Origin: Acaryochloridaceae cyanobacterium SU_2_1
GTDB taxonomy: Bacteria; Cyanobacteriota; Cyanobacteriia; Thermosynechococcales; Thermosynechococcaceae
Direction: 5' to 3'
Length of the DNA: 37,623 bases
Assembly: GCA_012030735.1 (NCBI GenBank)
Contig: JAAUUW010000011.1
Coordinates: forward strand, 1 to 37,623
How positions within the stretch are numbered: the first letter of the stretch is position 1; each line of letters starts with the position of its first letter. The notes below the pieces were generated by a model. That model saw nothing but the letters and a program-made list of their open reading frames with translations. It was not told the DNA's origin and ran no database searches. Below are positions 5,776 through 22,672 of the stretch, piece by piece. Position numbers and translations under genes: made by a program.

Positions 5776-5828
5776 ATGTCTGATTGACCCTTATCACTTC
5801 ATCTCTGGATGTCAAGATATTTCCCATC

Positions 5829-7000
5829 ATGCTCAACCTCAATCTAGATCAGATCGACCTTACCAAGGCAGAATACGAGCAGTATTCCCGTCATTTAATT
5901 CTGCCTGAGGTGGGTTTAGAAGGGCAAAAACGCTTAAAAGCTACCAGTATTCTCTGTGTCGGCACCGGAGGACTAGGTTCGCCCCTATTACTTTATTTAG
6001 CTGCTGCGGGTATCGGTCGACTCGGAATTGTGGATAACGATGTAGTGGATCATTCTAACTTGCAGCGTCAGGTGATCCATGGCACCTCTTGGGTGAACAA
6101 GCCCAAAATTGAATCTGCCAAACATCGCATCTTAGAGATTAATCCCTTCTGTCAAGTGGATCTCTATCCGACCTGGCTCACCTCGGAGAACGCCTTAGAA
6201 ATCGCCGCACCCTACGATATTGTCATTGACGGAACTGATAATTTCCGACTCGTTATCTTGTCAATGATGCCTGTGTGTTACTCAATAAGCCCAATGTCTA
6301 TGGTTCAATTTATCGGTTTGAGGGGCAGGCCACAGTCTTTAACTACGAAGGGGGGCCCAATTATCGCGATCTCTATCCTGAACCCCCACCCCCAGGCTTA
6401 GTGCCCTCCTGCGCTGAAGGAGGGGTCTTGGGGGTTTTACCAGGCATTATTGGTGTGATTCAAGCGACCGAAGCCCTTAAAATAGTTTTGGGCCAAGGCA
6501 CGACCTTAAGCGGGCGACTCTTGTTATTTAATGCCCTGGATATGAAGTTTCGGGAGTTGACCCTACGGCCCAATCCCATTCGGCCGGTGATTGAAAAACT
6601 GATTGATTACCAAGAATTCTGTGGCATTCCACAGGCCCAAGCCGCTGAAGCAGCCCAACAAGCAAATATGGAAGAAATCACAGTCCAAGAACTCAAAACT
6701 TTGATCGATAGCGATGTCCAGGATTTTGTCCTCTTAGATGTTCGAAATCCCAATGAACATGAGATTGCCCGCATCCCCGGATCGGTTTTGGTTCCCTTAG
6801 CAGAGATTGAAAGTGGTGAAGGGATTCCGAAGGTGAAAGAACTCTTGAATGGTCATCGTCTGATTGTGCATTGCAAAATGGGTGGACGCTCAGCAAAGGC
6901 ATTGGGGTTCTTGCAAGCAGCGGGAATCATGGGCACTAATGTCAAGGGAGGCATTCAGGCATGGAGCCAGGAAATTGATGCATCGGTCCCTGAGTATTAA
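5829..7000 (+). CDS. moeB: MoeB/MoeZ-type adenylyltransferase with rhodanese domain, one frameshift
   Basis: E1-like enzyme that adenylates the C-terminus of a sulfur-carrier protein, fused to a rhodanese domain that supplies sulfur. Seen: nucleotide-binding CVGTGGLGSPLLLYLAAAG, the DNDVVDHSNLQRQ segment, catalytic-Cys region LVPSCAEGGVLGVLPG, and a C-terminal rhodanese domain with active Cys in IVHCKMGGRSAKA. The CxxC zinc pair of classic MoeB is replaced by YRDLYPEPPPPG. The frame breaks at CC 6245-6246. One added C gives DNFPTRYLVNDACVLLNKPNV and about 390 residues, the usual size. I chose ATG 5829 (MLNLNLDQIDL). The JAMM protease gene immediately upstream probably acts in the same pathway. 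Confidence 0.9.
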
Positions 7001-8272: not shown

Positions 8273-8947
8273 TTATTCGCGCAGCACATAGCCAACACCA
8301 CGCACTGTCTGAATGAGGCGCTTCTCTTGATTTTCTTCTAACTTGAGGCGCAGATAGCGAATATAAACTTCGATGATATTGGAATCACCCATAAAGTCAT
8401 AGCCCCAAACCTGTTCTAAGATGCGATCACGAGTTAGCACTTGGCGCGGATGCATCATTAAATAGACCAGTAGATCAAATTCCTTGGCTGTTAACTCAAT
8501 GGCCCGTTCTTGGCGGAAGATTTCGCGGGTACGCTGATTGAGTGTGAGATCGGAAAACTCTAGCAGGTCGGGATCTTCTTCGTGGGTGCGGCGTAAATGC
8601 GCCCGTACCCTAGCCAGTAATTCCTCAATGCTAAAGGGTTTGACCATATAGTCATCAGCCCCGGCGTCAAGACCTTCGACGCGATCGCTAATTTCATCCT
8701 TAGCCGTCAGTAAAATTACTGGAACCTTATCACCCGTGGTCCGCAACCGGCGGCAGACCTCTAAACCCGACAGGCCAGGTAGCATCCAATCAAGCAAAAT
8801 CAGATCCGGTTGAGATTCCCGAGCCATCGTTAATCCGCCCATGCCATCACTCGCCACCGTGACCTGATATCCCTCATGGGTGAGTTCCATCTCCACAAAC
8901 TGAGCTAACTTGGCTTCATCTTCTACTACAAGAATATGTGCTGTCAT
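8273..8947 (-). CDS. OmpR-family response regulator paired with sensor kinase
   Basis: A 224-residue response regulator. The receiver covers residues 1-120 with Asp53 in LLDWMLPGLSG and Lys in MVKPFSIEELLARVRAHLRR. The winged-helix effector domain ends VRGVGYVLRE. Its ATG overlaps the stop of the upstream sensor-kinase gene by four bases (ATGA), so the two are co-transcribed and translationally coupled, and almost certainly form a cognate pair. The general make-up is that of common cyanobacterial regulators such as the ManR/RppA type, but I cannot assign a specific name. The gene is intact and is the last of the minus-strand set starting with the lipoprotein. Confidence 0.9.
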   Translation of the reverse strand: MTAHILVVEDEAKLAQFVEMELTHEGYQVTVASDGMGGLTMARESQPDLILLDWMLPGLSGLEVCRRLRTTGDKVPVILLTAKDEISDRVEGLDAGADDYMVKPFSIEELLARVRAHLRRTHEEDPDLLEFSDLTLNQRTREIFRQERAIELTAKEFDLLVYLMMHPRQVLTRDRILEQVWGYDFMGDSNIIEVYIRYLRLKLEENQEKRLIQTVRGVGYVLRE

Positions 8948-10443
8948 AGTGCTTTAGTCGTTGCCGGTAACGTTACCGTAAATGTACTCCCTTCACCCGC
9001 ACAAGAGACAACGCTAACATTCCCGCCCATACCCTCAGTGAAGGTTCTCACTAAGGATAACCCTAATCCAGAACCACCAATGGCCCGATTTCGAGATTCA
9101 TCTAAGCGATAAAATCGCTCAAAAATTCGAGCTTGGTGTTTGAGGGGGATGCCTGGGCCGCGATCACACACATGAATAATCGCCTCAGTCTCCGTTTGCT
9201 GAAGCTTAACCACCACCGGCGTCAATGGATCCGAATATTTGACTGCATTTTCCACCAAATTCACCAAGACCTGCTGCAGTCGATCGGGATCAGCATAAAC
9301 TGAAATAATCTCAGTCTCGGCCTCTAAGCAAATCTCCCGATCATTAAAGCGATCTGCCATTTTTACCACCTCCGCTGCCACATCATTGAGAATCAAATTC
9401 TCTAAATGATAGGGTAAATAACCATCATCAGCCCGCGCCAAACAGAGCAGATCCTGCAGCAGACGAATCGTTAAGCCCGTCTCTGACAAGGAGATGTCCA
9501 GGGCTTCTCGTTGCATTTCTGTCAGATTATGGCCCCGTCGTTGAATACTTTGCAAGTAGCCCAAAACAATGGTGAGCGGCGTGCGAAGCTCGTGGGAGAC
9601 ATTACTGACAAACTGGCGTTGCTGCTCACTGCTCTGCTGCTGCTGAGTCCACGCCTTAGATATCCGGCCCAGCATCCGGTTAAAGGTATTCGCTAGCTCT
9701 TGAATTTCGCTAGGGGCTTGGTTAATGAGCACCCTCGTTTCCCCTAAATCATCGGCAGAAATAGCCTTGGTGATCATCCCCATCTGCCTCAGGGGCGAGA
9801 GGGAATGGCGGACAAAGAGCGTCAGGGCAGCCGTAATCAATAATATCGCCACCAGACTTGCTAGAGTCAGACTTTCCACACTCTCCTCAAGCATTTCCTG
9901 ATCGGCTGTAATATCTTGAGCAACATAAAGCTCTCCATAGGTCTTATTACCGATCACCAAGGGTCCTCGACAGGCCACAAAATCTCGACCTTCAAAACGG
10001 TGAACCTCTGGTGTCACACTAGCCTGAAAAGCGCTGCTCATAACCTGAGGGTTTTCGAGCCGCTGCCAGGTCGGTATCAACCCGTTCGTTGAGGCGGTAA
10101 TGAACGTTCCTTGAGGTCGACTCACCCATAGCAACAGATTGCGACCAGCACGGTTATCGACCGCTTTTTGCACCGTTTGCTCAGGGGTAAACATCTCCTC
10201 CATCTGTCGGTACAGCATCACATCGTCCGCCACCCGATCAGAAATCATCTTGATATTGTGCTTATGGCTAGAAATTAAGATCTGCTGCATTTGCCAGCTT
10301 GTCCAGGCCGCCACACAGGTTAAACCCATAACGATTAAGCCAGCCATACTCACCGTCAAGCGAAATTGTAGAGATTTGGGATCAATCCTGGGTCGCCATC
10401 CTTGGGGAACAATCCAACCTAGTTTTGGCATCAAGAGTTTCAT
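8944..10443 (-). CDS. Membrane sensor histidine kinase
   Basis: Sensor kinase of about 499 residues. Layout: cytoplasmic start, transmembrane helix (FRLTVSMAGLIVMGLTCVAA), extracytoplasmic sensor region of roughly 140 residues, second helix (LASLVAILLITAALTLFV), HAMP linker, dimerisation domain with phospho-acceptor His in FVSNVSHELRTPL, and a complete ATPase domain: N box LVENAVKYS, DRGPGIP, FERFYRLD, GGSGLGLSLV. I chose ATG 10443. A TTG at 10467 would overlap the cupin stop by four bases, and neither has a strong ribosome-binding site. The signal is unknown. The cupin gene upstream and the overlapping regulator downstream suggest one transcript. Confidence 0.9.
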   Translation of the reverse strand: MKLLMPKLGWIVPQGWRPRIDPKSLQFRLTVSMAGLIVMGLTCVAAWTSWQMQQILISSHKHNIKMISDRVADDVMLYRQMEEMFTPEQTVQKAVDNRAGRNLLLWVSRPQGTFITASTNGLIPTWQRLENPQVMSSAFQASVTPEVHRFEGRDFVACRGPLVIGNKTYGELYVAQDITADQEMLEESVESLTLASLVAILLITAALTLFVRHSLSPLRQMGMITKAISADDLGETRVLINQAPSEIQELANTFNRMLGRISKAWTQQQQSSEQQRQFVSNVSHELRTPLTIVLGYLQSIQRRGHNLTEMQREALDISLSETGLTIRLLQDLLCLARADDGYLPYHLENLILNDVAAEVVKMADRFNDREICLEAETEIISVYADPDRLQQVLVNLVENAVKYSDPLTPVVVKLQQTETEAIIHVCDRGPGIPLKHQARIFERFYRLDESRNRAIGGSGLGLSLVRTFTEGMGGNVSVVSCAGEGSTFTVTLPATTKAL

Positions 10444-10463
10444 GGGAGGTCTGGTTGGTTCTT

Positions 10464-11075
10464 TCAAAACAAGGTAGCGGTGTGCAACACCGGATCAAAG
10501 GTAAAGCGGGCCTCATAGTCCGTAAGGCCATACAAATTGAAGGTAACCGTCGGTTGCTCGCCCATCGCCTCTACCGAGTGAATGCTATCGGGCATCACAC
10601 TGATAATGTCACCAGGATGCAAGATAATTGTCTCTCTCTGCTCAATCTGTTGGGGATGCTCTGCAATCGGTTTGCGTTGCCAGAGCGTATTTTTCTCTTT
10701 GCCACTCAATAATGCTACAACTCCCCAAGTGGCATGGTTATGAATGGGCGACACTTGACCCGGCAACCAAACCACCGTTTGCACTGTCAAGGGAAAATCT
10801 GGCTCATCATAGAGCATGGTCACCGACCAACCCTGTGCTGGATCTGGCAGGGCTACTTCATACTGCAGCCAAGGAGCATCAGCCAATAGCTGGCGCACCA
10901 AGGGATGAATGGCCTCTAGCCGTTGGTAATCATCTTCAGTTGCTATCAGTACGTCTTCCACCTCGGTTAAGAAGCGGTATAGGCGATAGGCATGTGACTG
11001 TTCCCGCGCCAAAGTTGTCCTTGGCCAAGGCTGTGCATGCCCTGCGGTTGTGATCAACCAATCTTGCTCAACCAT
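10464..11075 (-). CDS. Cupin, cysteine-dioxygenase-like
   Basis: A 203-residue single-domain cupin resembling type I cysteine dioxygenases and related thiol dioxygenases. The three-His iron site is visible: His112 and His114 in SPIHNHATWGVVALLSG and His166 in MPDSIHSVEA. These enzymes use Fe(II) and oxygen to oxidise a thiol to a sulfinate; the substrate here cannot be read from sequence. The start ATG 11075 gives a normal N-terminus. The stop is immediately before or inside the sensor-kinase start region, and the lipoprotein stop lies 45 bases upstream, so the gene probably belongs to a four-gene transcript. It could act as an enzyme or a cytoplasmic redox/thiol sensor for the kinase; the latter is speculation. 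Confidence 0.78.
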   Translation of the reverse strand: MVEQDWLITTAGHAQPWPRTTLAREQSHAYRLYRFLTEVEDVLIATEDDYQRLEAIHPLVRQLLADAPWLQYEVALPDPAQGWSVTMLYDEPDFPLTVQTVVWLPGQVSPIHNHATWGVVALLSGKEKNTLWQRKPIAEHPQQIEQRETIILHPGDIISVMPDSIHSVEAMGEQPTVTFNLYGLTDYEARFTFDPVLHTATLF

Positions 11076-11120: not shown

Positions 11121-11613
11121 TTACTGAACAACGACCGGATAATCTGGGGTTGGATTCAGAGGGCAACTGAATACATAGTTCCCTGGTGTGAGGGTCACTT
11201 CGTAGCGAGAGGTTTTCCCTTGGGTAAGGTTACCACCACTCACCTTAGGTAAGCTGCCTTCATTGGTTCCTTCGCCCCGCAAATAAAATCCTAAGGGGTA
11301 GGCAACATCTCGATTCGTAACCTCAAAGGTATATTTGCCAGGCTTGAGTTTTAAGGGCTTAAAGCCAGTCTGACGCTGATCGAGGGTCTTAGCGTTGATT
11401 CTTTGGCAATCTTCGATGCTGGTGGTTTGATATTTATAATCTTCAGCCTCTGCTTCAATGAATTGACAACCGGTCTGAGTTAGCTTAACCAGATTTACCG
11501 GTGATTCATCCCCCGGCCGATTTTTCGGAATTGTTAGCAGTTGTTTGTGTGGGAGTACAGCTCGTCAACATTATCAGTGCCAAGACACTGCTCTGCAACC
11601 ATGGATATTTCAT
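11121..11613 (-). CDS. Putative lipoprotein with cupredoxin-like C-terminus, one frameshift
   Basis: This gene is split by a frameshift. The start is ATG 11613, preceded by GGAG eight bases away. The N-terminus MKYPWLQSSVLALIMLTSC is a lipoprotein signal with lipobox LTSC, followed by a Ser/Thr/Asn-rich linker. The frame breaks at the C5 run 11510-11514. Removing one base joins SEKSAG to DESPVNLVKLTQTGCQF and gives about 163 residues ending YPVVVQ. The C-terminal part (GKYTFEVTNRDVAYPLGFYL and VTLTPGNYVFSCPLNPTPDY) looks like a cupredoxin beta-sandwich with its late Cys, but the copper-binding His residues are not apparent. The family is not recognised. It lies 45 bases upstream of the cupin gene on the same strand. 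Confidence 0.65.
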
Positions 11614-12666
11614 CGAACATTCTCCCTTTGGTAGTGAACCGTCCTATCTGTCCCCAGTCTAGAACTCAAGAGATGATACCGACCTGACGGTGGTCTAAAT
11701 TTTTCCTGAGAAAACCAATGTTTTTATTTGGGTGCGAAGTTGCAATAGTCCTTGGCTAGATTAAGGAAAGGCGTTGTTTCATAAGTAGAAGTTGAGCCAG
11801 ATAATCCCTCTGCCAAGATGAAGTTAAGCAGCGATCGGAAGGCAAATTGATTTGCCAAGTTGAATCATCCGATTCAGGATCGCAGCTTGACACAATAATT
11901 CTGTCCCCTGATTCTCGAATTTACACAATTGAACTTTGCTCCCAAAAATAGCTCAATGACGAAACATCCTCGTTTCAGATGAAGTTCACCATGCTCATGA
12001 TGGTGATGTCCGGACTTGGCAGGCATTGTTTCTGAAGGCTTGATTATTAAGTCATTGCTCGCTGACCCAGAACCTCAAGCTACCTCGTTGTTTTAAGGCC
12101 AGATTGTACTCACGCCAGTTGCGAACTCGGTATTGCTTCATCCTTTGGGGCTGGACTTCATGATTCAGGGGAACGATCCCATTACACCCCAAAGACACTT
12201 GCTTTCGCAACAACGCTCCTATGATTGAGAGGGCTTTGATCTATCCTGCATAAATTCATCAATAAAAACTGACTAATAGATATGAGCCTTCTTCAAGCTT
12301 TATAACGAATGCAAAACATTTTCTTGAAATAAAAACTATTTACTTATAGTAAAGTATGAAAATTAAATAATACAGATTATTTTGAGCTACCTGCAATCTA
12401 AGTTAAACTTAATTTTGAAAATATAATTTAGGCGCTCATCTTCTAGTTATCTTTTATTGCTTAATCGTCAAAGAATTGTTTTCTAATTGCATCAATAAAT
12501 ATTGTTTTTAATTGAAGAAAATATTGAAAAAACAATTATAAGTCTCGATAGGACTGTTATTCGTTGATATTACTCAATTCACAAAAGATCTTTTTGGTCA
12601 AGATCAGTGAGATTTTTAATTGCCTTCTTGTAGAGCAAACTGTTTCATGAATATTTAGGAGAAAAC
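11614..12666. other. AT-rich gene-poor region with IS remnant
   Basis: No intact gene. It contains a decayed IS5-type left end (12052-12219), the short inverted repeat GGCAAAT-TG-ATTTGCC at 11841-11856, and a strongly AT-rich stretch from about 12290 to 12640 leading into the DUF1350 gene. That stretch has nine-base inverted arms ATTGTTTTT/AAAAACAAT at 12501-12536. Short open minus-strand frames between 11690 and 12050 may be further remnants but resemble nothing I can name. Confidence 0.5.
12052..12219 (-). mobile_element. Remnant of an IS5-family element (left end and transposase start)
   Basis: On the minus strand an ATG at 12141 opens a 29-codon frame reading MKQYRVRNWREYNLALKQRG then SLRFWVSEQ and a stop. 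This matches the start of IS5-type DDE transposases, which typically begin with YRVxNWxEYNxALxQRGS. About 60 bases further upstream is AGCGTTGTTGCGAAAGC (12202-12218), resembling the terminal inverted repeat of that family. No DDE motifs or second end are present, so only the left end survives and the element is dead. Family assignment rests on remembered motifs. Confidence 0.5.
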
Positions 12667-16700: not shown

Positions 16701-19457
16701 TTAGCCTAGGGGCGTTGAATCATCATCGGTGGCGACTGAGTCTGGCTCTGATGTGATCAGAGGACTCATTAGGCCACTATCGGCAGAGGCTAGGGTCTGA
16801 TCAATCTCGCTAATCGGAAATCGGTTGAGGAGGAGTTGGGCACGCTGGGCATTTTTGGACAAGGTGGTTGAAACACCTGGTACATGGGGAATCTGAGAGA
16901 GGAAATCTAAGCTGCGTCGCAGAATACGGACGAGATCGCCAGCATCTAGGCTGGTATTGGTGCAAAGTTCTTCCCAAGTCAGTCCTAGGGCCCATTGTTC
17001 CACTAAGCCTACGAGTTCTAAGTCCAAGCAGATGGGGAACTCGATTTGATGGAGCTGCTGTTGTTGGAGAAGTTTTCGCTGCAAGGGTTTCAAGGGTCTG
17101 AGAGCGGTGGCGATCTGGGGGTTAAGTTTGCAGGTCGTCCAGACATCAGTCCGATTATTCTCGATCACAAGGGCGGCGCAAGCGGCGGCTAACTGGTGCG
17201 GTTCTAGGGTGTCTAATTGGCTAGAATGAAGGGCTAGACCTAGCCATAATTCGTTCTCACCACGGATCGCAGCGATCATTTGCCCTAGGGGGCTGGGGGT
17301 TAAATCGTAAGGGCCTGGAAATTTTGTAAACATCGATGAGGGCAAGAAAGTCTTGCCAATGGTGTTGCAATTGGCGGTTGCATTTAACTTGGCGATCCTG
17401 TAGTTGCAAGGTGATGGTCTTCACTCGCTGTTGCCAACGCAGAAATTTTTGGTGATGGTGTCGTGAAGCATGGGCAGGATGTTGAACTAGTTGGCTGGCA
17501 ACTGCTTCTAAACTGTGCTGTTGAGCCAATACTTCTGAGGGGTATTGCCAGGCTATGTCAGGAATTTGCTGGGCAATTTTAGCTGTAATTGCGTCACCTG
17601 TTTGAGTTTGTCCGGGTTTCTGTAAGTTGCTGGGCAAGGATAAATTTTGGCAACTCTGAAACTGATCCCAAGTCGGCCCCAAACTGATCACCTGATGCCG
17701 AGTGACCACCTGCCAGATATTTTCTTGGCTCAAACAGGCAAAGTAGGGAAACTGGCCCGCGCTAGGTAGACGGGTGATTAACAGGGCGGCTAAGGGAGCT
17801 TGGGGTTGGCCTGTGCTTGTGGGGGGGCGACTGAGTCCCACTAGGGTGCCAGGGTCAGCCTCGATCAAGGCGAGGGCTATGTCACGGGAACAGGTTTCTT
17901 GGGCTTGTTGATCCAAAATTTTGAGCAGGCGCTGCTCTTCTTTGAGGCGCTGTCGAAGTTTTGGTAGCTATTGAGGGCAGTGGTGTCGAGGTTGGCAAGG
18001 TTGGCTTGTAATTGGCTGATGTTCTTGCTCTAAGTCTGCGATCGCTTGTTTTTGGGGCGACAATTGCAAGTTGGCTAAATATTGGCCGAAACTTTGTTCG
18101 ATTAAACATTTTGATTCATCCAAACTATGGGTTTGTAAGAGATTAAGGACCATCCCATAGCTGGGGGTAAACTGGCTCACTAAGGGATCGGGCCCCATGG
18201 TCGCCAGATGAGCAGCCTCCTTCGCTCCTTCAAAGCGGGTTTGGACCGTGACAACATAGCCCCGGTCATCCATGCCCCGTCGGCCAGCTCGACCAGACAT
18301 CTGCAAAAATTCTGAGGCCGTCAATAAGCGATGTCCCCCATCGGTGCGTTTGGAAAGGCTGGCAATGACAGTGGTGCGAGCCGGCATATTAATCCCTGCT
18401 GCTAGGGTTTCGGTGGCAAATACAACCTTAATCAACCCCGCCTGAAACAATTCCTCAACCCAGTTTTTCCATTGAGGGAGCAGTCCAGCATGATGGGCGG
18501 CAATGCCATGGGCAATGGCGGCCAGTTGGCCAGGTTGACCGATACCGGGATGCTGCTGACGAAACCGCTCTAGAGCTGACTGCATTTGCTCTGCTTCATC
18601 TGGATTGAGCAAGTTAAGATGGGCGGTGGCTTGAACGGTGCGATCGCAACCCCGCCGACTAAAGATGAAATAAATGGCAGGCAGCAGCTGCCGCTCTCGC
18701 AACTGCTTTAAGATACCAATCACATCTGGACTATCGCCACGGCGTTGATGACGAGCAGCTCCTTGCTTTTTACCCTGCCCCTTTAAGCGAGGATTAATGT
18801 GGGTTTTCTGTGCATTCAATAAGGGAAAAATTCCCTTATGAGTGGCAAAATACACCTGAAGGGGGACAGGCCGCCAATCAGACTCAATCAGCTGTGTAGG
18901 GCCATGCACCCAGTTCATCCAATCCGTCAACTGCTGCCCATTGGCAATGGTCGCTGACAAGGCAATCAGTTGAATATGAGCTGGGCAATAAATAATCGAT
19001 TCTTCCCAAACTGTACCCCGCTGGCGATCATTCATATAGTGGCATTCATCCAAAACCACTGCCTCCACACCCAGCAAAGATGTATCAACATTGGCGACTA
19101 AAGTGCCATAGAGAATATTGCGAAAAATCTCTGTGGTCATCACCAAGACAGGTGCCTCTCGATTGAGCGAAAGATCCCCCGTCAGCAAGCCCACATTGCT
19201 ACTGCCAAAAACAGCCTGAAAATCGCGAAGCTTTTGGTTAGAAAGAGCCTTTAAGGGCGTCGTATAGAAAACTCGGTGCCCCCGTTGCAGAGCTTGATAA
19301 ATCGCATATTCACCAATCACAGTTTTCCCTGACCCCGTCGGGGCAGAGACCACAATTGATTGTTGGGCATCTAAGGCCGCACAGGCCTCTTGCTGAAATG
19401 GATCCAGAGCAAGGAGAAACACTGACTAAAATCAGGTAGAACATTGGACAGACTCAC
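16701..19457 (-). CDS. Ski2/Mtr4-like DEAD/DEAH-box RNA helicase, several frameshifts
   Basis: Large ATP-dependent helicase related to Ski2/Mtr4 and plastid ISE2, probably acting on RNA. Motifs: I APTGSGKT, II LDECHYMND, III ALSATIAN, VI QMSGRAGRRGMDDRGYV, with a DSHCT-type C-terminus (LGLTWEELCTNTSLDAGDLVR). Frame breaks: one extra base at 18014-18015 and one missing at 17959-17962 cancel each other, restoring ANLANLDTTALNSYQKLRQR; another lies at about 17300-17335 before LTPSPLGQMIAAIRGENELW. The N-terminus probably starts at GTG 19457 (SLSNVLPDFSQ) with a missing base near 19422; otherwise it is GTG 19422. About 905-918 residues result, normal for the cyanobacterial family. It lies 76 bases after pilL on the same strand. 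Confidence 0.85.
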
Positions 19458-19533: not shown

Positions 19534-22500
19534 CTACTTGACCAACACTTCGCCGTTAAGCATCCGTTGGGCAGCTTCCAGCAGAGCTTCCTCTAGATAG
19601 GGCTTTGTAAAGTATCCCTTAGCACCTAGTTCAATCGCCATCTGCTTATGACGAGTTCGCCCCCTAGAGGTCAGCATCGCCACGGGTAGATCCTGCAAAT
19701 CTTCATCTTGCTGCAAACGAGATAACAACTCTAACCCATCCATCCTTGGCATCTCGACATCACAAAATACCAAATCACAGGGCAAGCCAGACCGCAGTTT
19801 TTCCCAGGCCTCTTGACCATCTCGAGCTTGTTCAACCCGATAGCCCACCTTATTGAAAGTCATCGATAACAGCTCTCGCACGGTAATCGAATCATCAACA
19901 ATCAATACCGTTGGATCAGTCTCTTCATCGAAATCCGTAGTTTCTAAAATATTCTGCCAGAGATTGCTATTAAGCTCTGTGCGATCCAGACTCAGATCAA
20001 CTAACTCGATCACATCTGCGATCGCCATAATGCCACCATCCCCTAAAATAGTGACCCCAGCAATTCCCATAGGCTTGGGTACCGGATCCGCCAGCTGTTT
20101 AATCACAATCTCTTGCTCAGCCAGAACCTGCTCCACCTCAATAGCCACCACATCTTCCCCACTGCGAAGAATGACCAAAGATGCCATCCCTTCATCCTTC
20201 GTGGAGGCACCCGCATAGAGATTACTGCGCTTAAAACGGAAGTTATAAGCCAACAAATCACTCAGCCGTTTATAGGGAATCTGCTGGTCCTGCCAACTAA
20301 TCGTAATTTGCCCTCGGCATTCTGCCTGAGTTGATCCTTAGGCAAATCCACCACATCTTGCACCCCATCAATCGGGAAAGCAATTTGCGAAGCATGATTC
20401 ACACAACAGAGCGCCTTGGTAATACTCAAGGTCAAAGGTAAACGGATCGTAAAGGTTGTCCCCTTATCAATCCCCGAGTCAGTATTGATAACCCCACGGA
20501 TTTCATGGATGCTATTGCGGACCACATCCATCCCCACACCACGACCAGCCAAATCATTTGCTTTATCTTGAGTGCTAAAGCCCGACTTAAACAACAGTGC
20601 ATAGGCATCCTGTCGTGTCAGATTCTCCGCTTCGGCAGGGGTTAACAATTGTTTTCTAGGGCCTTGGCCTTAATTCGATCAACATCAATGCCAGCGCCAT
20701 CATCCGTAATCGAAATAACTGCTTGATTCCCTTGATAAAAAGCACGCAACTTAATAACACCTTCAGCTTCCTTGCCTAAGGACTGACGAATCTCCGGAAA
20801 TTCAATGCCATGGAAAATCGCATTATTAACCAAATGGGTTAAGGGATCATAGAGCCGCTCTAAAATACTTTTATCGATTAAAGTCTCTCGCCCTTCCAGT
20901 TCTAAGCGAGCTTGCTTACCACATTTTAAGGAAATATCACGCACTGCCCTAGGCAATCGCTCAGCCACCTGGGAAAAAGGTACCATCCGTGATTGGGTTA
21001 GCCCCTCTTGAACCTGAGTCGTAATTTGCCGAAACATCCGAGTGACTTGTTCAGTCCCCTCAACCATAAACTCAATATCAGCAGCAGCTTCTCGGACTCG
21101 GACAATCCGCTCAATCATTTCCTGAGACAAAATATGAAAGCTACTAAAGCTATCCATCTCCAAGGCATCGAATTGGGCACCTGTAGCATGGCCATCACTA
21201 AAGCCATTTCCTCCCTTCGAGGCCAGATGCTGTTGACGACTACTTAACAAAGAATTTTCAAGCAAAGAACGCTCATAATGATCCTCCATCTGCCGCCCTA
21301 AATCATTGAGCTGCTGAACTTGTAGCAACAAATTATCCAAAAACTGTCGCAGGCGATTTTGGGTATCTTCAAAGGAGTTCCGGCTAACAACCAACTCTCC
21401 AATCAGATTACTCAGGTTATCCAGTTGCTTCACTGGCACCTTCATGGTCGGGGAGGCAGTACTATTACGACGCGATGGCTTGGCTGCCCCATGAGCCTGG
21501 GCCGCAACACCGGGGGCCTGAGAACCTCGATTAGGTTCTTCTATCAGCTTTTCTAAATCACCGAAATCATTGCCCTGCAGATCTTTCCCCACAGTTGCTG
21601 GCACAATACCAGATGAGCCCTTTGCCAAGAGCTGATCAAAATTAGTGAAGCTCTCTTCAAAATTAGCAGCAATAGCAGGCTCAGGAACTGGAATAGACTC
21701 CGGTGTATTTAGCCAATCCTCCAGAAAAGAAGCAGACTCTCCTTGAACGGTGACTTTTGTACTGTCTGACCCCTCAAAGAGTCCAAACCAATCCAGATCC
21801 GCTGATTGATCTTCAAGGGGACTATGGAGATCCGTCAGGTCTATGGCCGGCATTAATTCAATGAGCTCTGGCATCGGCTGAACTTCAGCAGCGCGTTGGG
21901 CCAAAACCAAATCCCTCGCATCTTTAATACTCGGAACAATCAAACCTGCCAAGGTTGATAAGGAGTTATCAGGATGTCCAATGGCTGAACCAGAGATTTC
22001 TAACAATTCAGACCAACCAGTTAAGCCAAAGGATTGTCCCAATTGAGATAACTCTTGGCAAATAGTAATGAGCGCTTGGCGAGTTTCCGGGGAATCTTTG
22101 CCTTTGAACAAGCCCAAAAGTTCTCGCAGCTTCTGTAAAACGTCTTTTTGAAAGACATTAATGCCCTCAGCAGTGAGTACCGATGACTCTGCCGCAGCCT
22201 GTGTTGGCGCTCCAGTAGGACTTGTTAACATGAAACTTAGATCAACACCAGGTCCAAGAACCGCCACCAGATGCGTATGAATATCCGTAAACACCGGCTC
22301 CACATCCGCTATTATTTTGGCTGAGAATTGATCCGAAAGACTAAAAGCCCCCTCTAATTCTTCTGTTAAAACACTCAGGGCATCAAAGGTCTTCAAAAGC
22401 AATGACTCCAGCGTTTGATCAACCTGCACCGTATGCTCTTTGAGTACCTTGAAATAGTCTTCTAGGCGATGAGCGATATGCTGAATACTATGAATTCCCA

Positions 22501-22672
22501 GCATGGCAGCCCCACCTTTGACAGAATGGGCGGCTCGAAAAACCTCATTGAGCGATTCAGGGTCGGCAACAACGGTTTGTAAATTGAGTAGGCCATGCTC
22601 AATTGTATGGAGGTGCTCTTTAGCTTCCTCAATGAAATAGACCATAATCCGCTGCTGTTCTGGCTGCATCAC
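19534..22672 (-). CDS. pilL: CheA-type hybrid histidine kinase PilL, two frameshifts
   Basis: Central kinase of the pilus-chemotaxis pathway. Order: N-terminal Hpt domain with His49 (FRAAHSVKGGAAML), long linker, dimerisation domain (MKVPVKQLDNLSNLIGELVV), HATPase (LVNNAIFHGIE, TDDGAGID, GRGVGMDVVRNSIHEIRG), CheW-like domain, and a C-terminal receiver with Asp in FCDVEMPRMDG and Lys in YFTKPY. Two single missing bases split it: near 20646-20655 (joining KALEN to LLTPAEAENL) and in CCC 20311-20313 (restoring EGQITISWQDQQIPYKRLSD). The full product is about 1,046 residues. The name follows domain content and operon order, as in Synechocystis pilG-H-I-J-L. The pilJ stop is 62 bases upstream. Confidence 0.87.

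Follow-up and report, generated by a model that had tools for sequence, protein, structure and literature searches.

A predicted EfeO-like cupredoxin lipoprotein family with three invariant cysteines and no conserved histidine

A cyanobacterial gene split between two minus-strand reading frames appears to encode an exported lipoprotein whose domain is predicted to adopt the cupredoxin fold, with the cupredoxin domain of EfeO as its nearest structural match, and whose family has three invariant cysteines and no conserved histidine. We tentatively propose that this EfeO-like, histidine-free lipoprotein serves as a partner, acting through its cysteines, in the handling of thiols or soft metals in the periplasm. 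The frameshift interrupting its gene is probably an artefact. The fold is already known; the ligand set and the gene association are new. A preliminary description of this DNA had recognised the hidden protein and its cupredoxin-like end, and the three invariant cysteines, the nearness to EfeO and the link to genes for PCA-repeat and thiol-dioxygenase-like proteins lay beyond its reach. If the proposal is correct, a fold best known for type-1 copper has here been turned to cysteine chemistry instead.

The interrupted lipoprotein gene

The whole stretch of DNA that we analysed, here called the window (37,623 nucleotides), is contig C24 of a 3.02 Mb genome in 206 contigs that is 87.5% complete and is counted here within the genus Acaryochloris. 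It carries the following features around the gene:

11121..11613, minus strand: whole gene of the cupredoxin-like lipoprotein, from two overlapping frames and intact homologues
11506..11613, minus strand: N-terminal frame, a signal peptide with lipobox-like LTSC, assigned by eye
11121..11564, minus strand: C-terminal frame, with its TAA at 11121-11123
11124-11510, minus strand: conserved domain in the C-terminal frame, with C15, C35, Y71, C116, N119 and Y124 (fragment numbering)
10464..11075, minus strand: cupin of 203 aa, thiol-dioxygenase-like by sequence relation (a relative of 3-mercaptopropionate dioxygenase)
8944..10467, minus strand: sensor histidine kinase, from domain matches (HAMP, HisKA, HATPase_c)
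8273..8947, minus strand: OmpR-type response regulator, from domain matches
11683..11709, minus strand: direct repeat TCAGG-N17-TCAGG upstream of the operon, in 7/7 genomes of the genus; a candidate regulatory site

The minus-strand frame at 11506-11613 reads MKYPWLQSSVLALIMLTSC... and contains LTSC, which is lipobox-like as judged by eye; lipobox-like cysteines were assigned in the same way in 8/14 family sequences. The two frames overlap in a linker that includes a five-C run at 11510-11514. They were neither joined nor mended, and the conserved domain, which lies wholly in the second frame, was analysed from there. The preliminary description had made out a lipoprotein with a beta-rich C-terminal part, visible only after repair of the five-C run, and this was borne out: both motifs that it quoted are present in the window, and intact homologues of 157 aa (L011, from Acaryochloris sp. 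IP29b_bin.148) and 160 aa (L012) carry signal and domain together in one continuous frame. The second frame matches L011 with 70% identity (E 4.3e-63), at the sequence level far beyond chance. Elsewhere in the window, a histidine kinase at 20262-22672 (minus strand) seems split, its small frame at 20262-20648 being only the end of HATPase_c.

The frameshift most likely reflects an error of sequencing or assembly, the gene itself being intact in the cell: two more conserved genes are broken up in this window yet whole in 6/6 congeners. A ThiF/MoeB-rhodanese gene (5784-7000, plus strand) occupies two frames here and one frame of 394-406 aa in the congeners, and a DSHCT helicase (16701-19422, minus strand) is present as 484 aa plus further pieces, compared with 894-911 aa elsewhere. 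A recent true lesion is less likely. A recognisable copy of the lipoprotein gene occurs in 7/7 genomes of the genus, and among the six congeners only one is intact (G003, the source of L011); five are truly decayed, with several stops in G005 and G001, large deletions with differing far ends in G002 and G004, and only the last ~20 residues left in G006. The lipoprotein is therefore dispensable in those five. The order within the genus was unresolved in trees of the cupin and of the kinase (8 rows each), so independent losses could not be counted. This record of decay invites the reading that the window copy is likewise a pseudogene, which we nevertheless think improbable: it keeps all invariant residues, its single lesion falls in a variable linker, the contig holds other split conserved genes, and pN/pS against L011 is low (pN 0.169, pS 0.875 and saturated, over 124 codons of the domain).

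Predicted fold and ligand positions

A profile built from three sequences found the family in 18/388 genomes of the class, 7 within the genus and 11 outside it. A plasmid search gave no family match, 16 pattern stretches in viral contigs yielded 0 confirmed relatives, and deeper searches recovered only members already in the set (3 of 8 and 2 of 42). The window sequence, L011, L012 and 11 others were aligned in 14 rows, the five broken congeners being excluded; members are ~50-70% identical to the window. There are 44 invariant columns, including C15, C35, Y71, C116, N119 and Y124 as well as the run SCPLNPT and an LRG motif. Each of the 14 domains has exactly 3 cysteines, every one invariant. 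The window domain contains neither His nor Met; two of the 14 domains have one His each, which is not conserved. A histidine-free family is thus well supported by the aligned sequences.

AlphaFold2 models built from three sequences gave similar confidence for the window fragment (pLDDT 65.5, pTM 0.61) and for L011 (pLDDT 66.0, pTM 0.61), the ~30-residue insert that bears C35 being of low confidence. Both are predicted, with moderate confidence, to form the beta-sandwich of the cupredoxin superfamily. The top PDB match in Foldseek was EfeO (7wgu, E 1.6e-5), with 4 matches at E up to 0.001. Using VIA-align, EfeO led for the window model (Z 12.4, rmsd 2.1, 90 aligned), followed by FtrB and Cupredoxin_1 4hcg (both 11.0) and nitrosocyanin (10.7), and led again for the L011 model (Z 10.7, rmsd 2.2, 89 aligned), followed by FtrB (9.4). 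Alignment with the E. coli EfeO domain in hhalign (probability 84.4%) placed its late cysteine on C116; the counterpart of the first EfeO cysteine is ambiguous between C15 and C35, as hhalign begins at the C35 region and the structural alignment at the first strand. The window scored 18.0 bits against Pfam Cupredoxin_1, under the 27-bit cut-off, and 8/14 members matched this family at E up to 1 (best 9.1e-5). The cupredoxin fold of the family is well supported as a prediction.

Matches to the PDB by sequence only were weak, with plastocyanin at E 0.16. In this weak alignment the invariant Tyr71 takes the place of the first copper His, and C116 that of the copper Cys. Judged by the spacing of the plastocyanin ligands, Asn119 and Tyr124 would presumably occupy the positions of the second His and the Met. 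The full ligand set of a type-1, or blue, copper site, two His and one Cys (usually with Met), is not present. The preliminary description had anticipated a cupredoxin fold, a late cysteine region like that of blue-copper proteins and a lack of the usual His ligands; all three hold, the first as a prediction in both models and the last as a trait of the whole family. It had also pointed to Cys, Met and Tyr as residues that homologues might conserve, and here the cysteines, Tyr71 and Tyr124 proved invariant whereas no Met is conserved.

Neighbouring genes and proposed function

A frame with at least three PCA repeats (NPCASK-type, exported) lies by or in the lipoprotein gene at 10/14 loci. Six of these frames are divergent, at a distance of 228-550 bp, and four are inside the lipoprotein itself, two of them with a second copy upstream; the frame at L048 has 3 repeats only. 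No further PCA frames turned up in the rest of the 202,885 bases scanned. None is present at the window locus, L012 or L049, nor in the 600 bases of upstream sequence that L047 comprises. Within the genus, PCA matches were found in 5/7 genomes and not in G000 or G004, the G004 contig having <300 bases upstream. At L052, a frame of 26 PCA repeats (6043-6546) stands directly upstream of the fused PCA-cupredoxin gene. PCA-repeat paralogues at L068 (1480-2475) and L069 (805-1818) adjoin a YHS-like protein, which at L068 scores 24.3 bits, below the Pfam cut-off of 30.3.

A cupin is encoded within 4 kb at 10/14 loci, in 7 as the adjoining same-strand gene, and was not found in the stretches examined for L047, L050, L052 and L053. 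Its profile matches 3-mercaptopropionate dioxygenase (3uss, E 6.9e-18) and cysteine dioxygenase (E 1.1e-4), and as in thiol dioxygenases it has three invariant histidines (H112, H114 and H166, 6 aligned), which probably bind iron. All 7 genomes of the genus have the cupin, the G006 copy lying elsewhere in its genome and being 53% identical to that of the window. In G006 (L059, 3968-7055) its neighbours are a DsbD_TM membrane protein (35.4 bits, cut-off 27.1) and two PCA-thioredoxin fusions, whose thioredoxin parts exceed the cut-off of 23.5 bits at 44.2 and 48.9. The association of cupin and PCA frames with the lipoprotein looks strong by eye, as counted at these 14 loci only.

Eight copies of the direct repeat TCAGG-N17-TCAGG were counted in 268,572 bases, compared with ~0.5 expected with equal bases; one stands upstream of the operon in each of the 7 genus genomes, whose sequences are related and not independent. 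The repeat is kept where the lipoprotein gene has decayed, so its role may lie with the genes for the cupin and the kinase. As a general feature of the family it was rejected: the 12 loci outside the genus gave one exact copy, between the PCA and lipoprotein genes of L046, ten chance-like matches and a near-match at L047 that was equalled in 4/100 shuffles.

Given the three invariant cysteines and the thiol-related neighbours, we infer a cysteine-based function. The exported lipoprotein would carry a cupredoxin domain resembling that of EfeO, in which the other ligands of type-1 copper are gone and the cysteine of the copper site remains, along with two more invariant cysteines. In the periplasm it may cooperate through its cysteines with the PCA-repeat protein, itself a putative binder of soft metal or carrier of many thiols; the cupredoxin-like domain would take up or hand on metal or thiol/disulfide equivalents by way of C116 together with C15 and/or C35, and the thiol-dioxygenase-like cupin would process small thiols in the cytoplasm. 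A broader model, which we offer as rather speculative, is a periplasmic thiol/soft-metal system of PCA-repeat multi-cysteine carriers whose exchange partner, swapped beside the cupin, is either a histidine-free three-cysteine cupredoxin or a thioredoxin domain. Literature searches found no description of such a cyanobacterial periplasmic system, nothing on PCA-repeat strings or a histidine-free cupredoxin family, and nothing on a cupredoxin in Acaryochloris, with subscription papers mostly outside their reach.

Alternatively, the domain could be a copper-free structural relative that only binds a partner protein, its three cysteines forming a disulfide and a buried thiol. We regard this as somewhat unlikely: every type-1 His and Met position is indeed lost, and the motifs SCPLNPT and LRG seem suited to a surface or to packing, but the invariance of C116, Asn119 and Tyr124 in 14/14 members at this level of identity and the thiol-related neighbours speak against it, although neither is decisive. 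The nearest solved folds, EfeO and FtrB, are both iron-transport proteins, and FtrB is reported to lack the HHC copper set (PMC11966278), which suggests an iron-handling cupredoxin with oxygen ligands. We think that role improbable: the protein stops after the cupredoxin domain and so has no M75 domain, and scores against the NCBIfam EfeO model (NF041757) reach 17.6 bits at best among those scanned (L051; 11 bits for L012; the window not among the matches listed) against a cut-off of 270 bits. Furthermore, the FtrB copper residue H121 has no counterpart in the histidine-free window domain, and inspection of the neighbour proteins, short of a full annotation, revealed neither EfeU nor EfeB. An ordinary blue-copper electron carrier, to which the weak plastocyanin similarity might point, or expression by way of programmed frameshifting, is very improbable, as the window domain has no His at all and relatives have a single continuous frame.

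Comparison with known cupredoxins

Textbook cupredoxins are His-Cys-His copper proteins, and this family would show the fold turned to other chemistry: the Cys is retained, Tyr and Asn are invariant at the apparent positions of the other ligands, two more invariant cysteines are present, and genes for cysteine-repeat and thiol-processing proteins accompany it. Its members are small, testable proteins with obvious point mutants.

The closest likeness is to the N-terminal cupredoxin domain of EfeO (Cup-I, 7wgu), which is the nearest fold in both models, has its late Cys at C116 and is likewise exported. The window protein differs in lacking the M75 domain, in its ~30-residue insert with C35 and in falling far under the EfeO cut-off. 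The copper/iron site of EfeO is a proposal from a homology model (PMC9174327), and other authors call an EfeO metal site uncertain (PMC10318980). FtrB (Cup-II, 8vuk) shares a cupredoxin fold without the HHC copper set and still binds copper via other residues; these are D118 and H121 (PMC11966278), whereas the window domain has no His. The iron site of FtrB comprises the Glu residues E84, E86 and E93. Since FtrB binds copper without the HHC set, and the EfeO site is proposed or uncertain, a different metal site in the window protein is as open as none. Plastocyanin and the type-1 cupredoxins share the fold and, in the weak alignment, the copper Cys at C116, and differ in that the plastocyanin His aligns with Tyr71. 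Pfam Cupredoxin_1 (PF13473, 4hcf/4hcg) resembles the C-terminal half of the sandwich, at a score below its cut-off.
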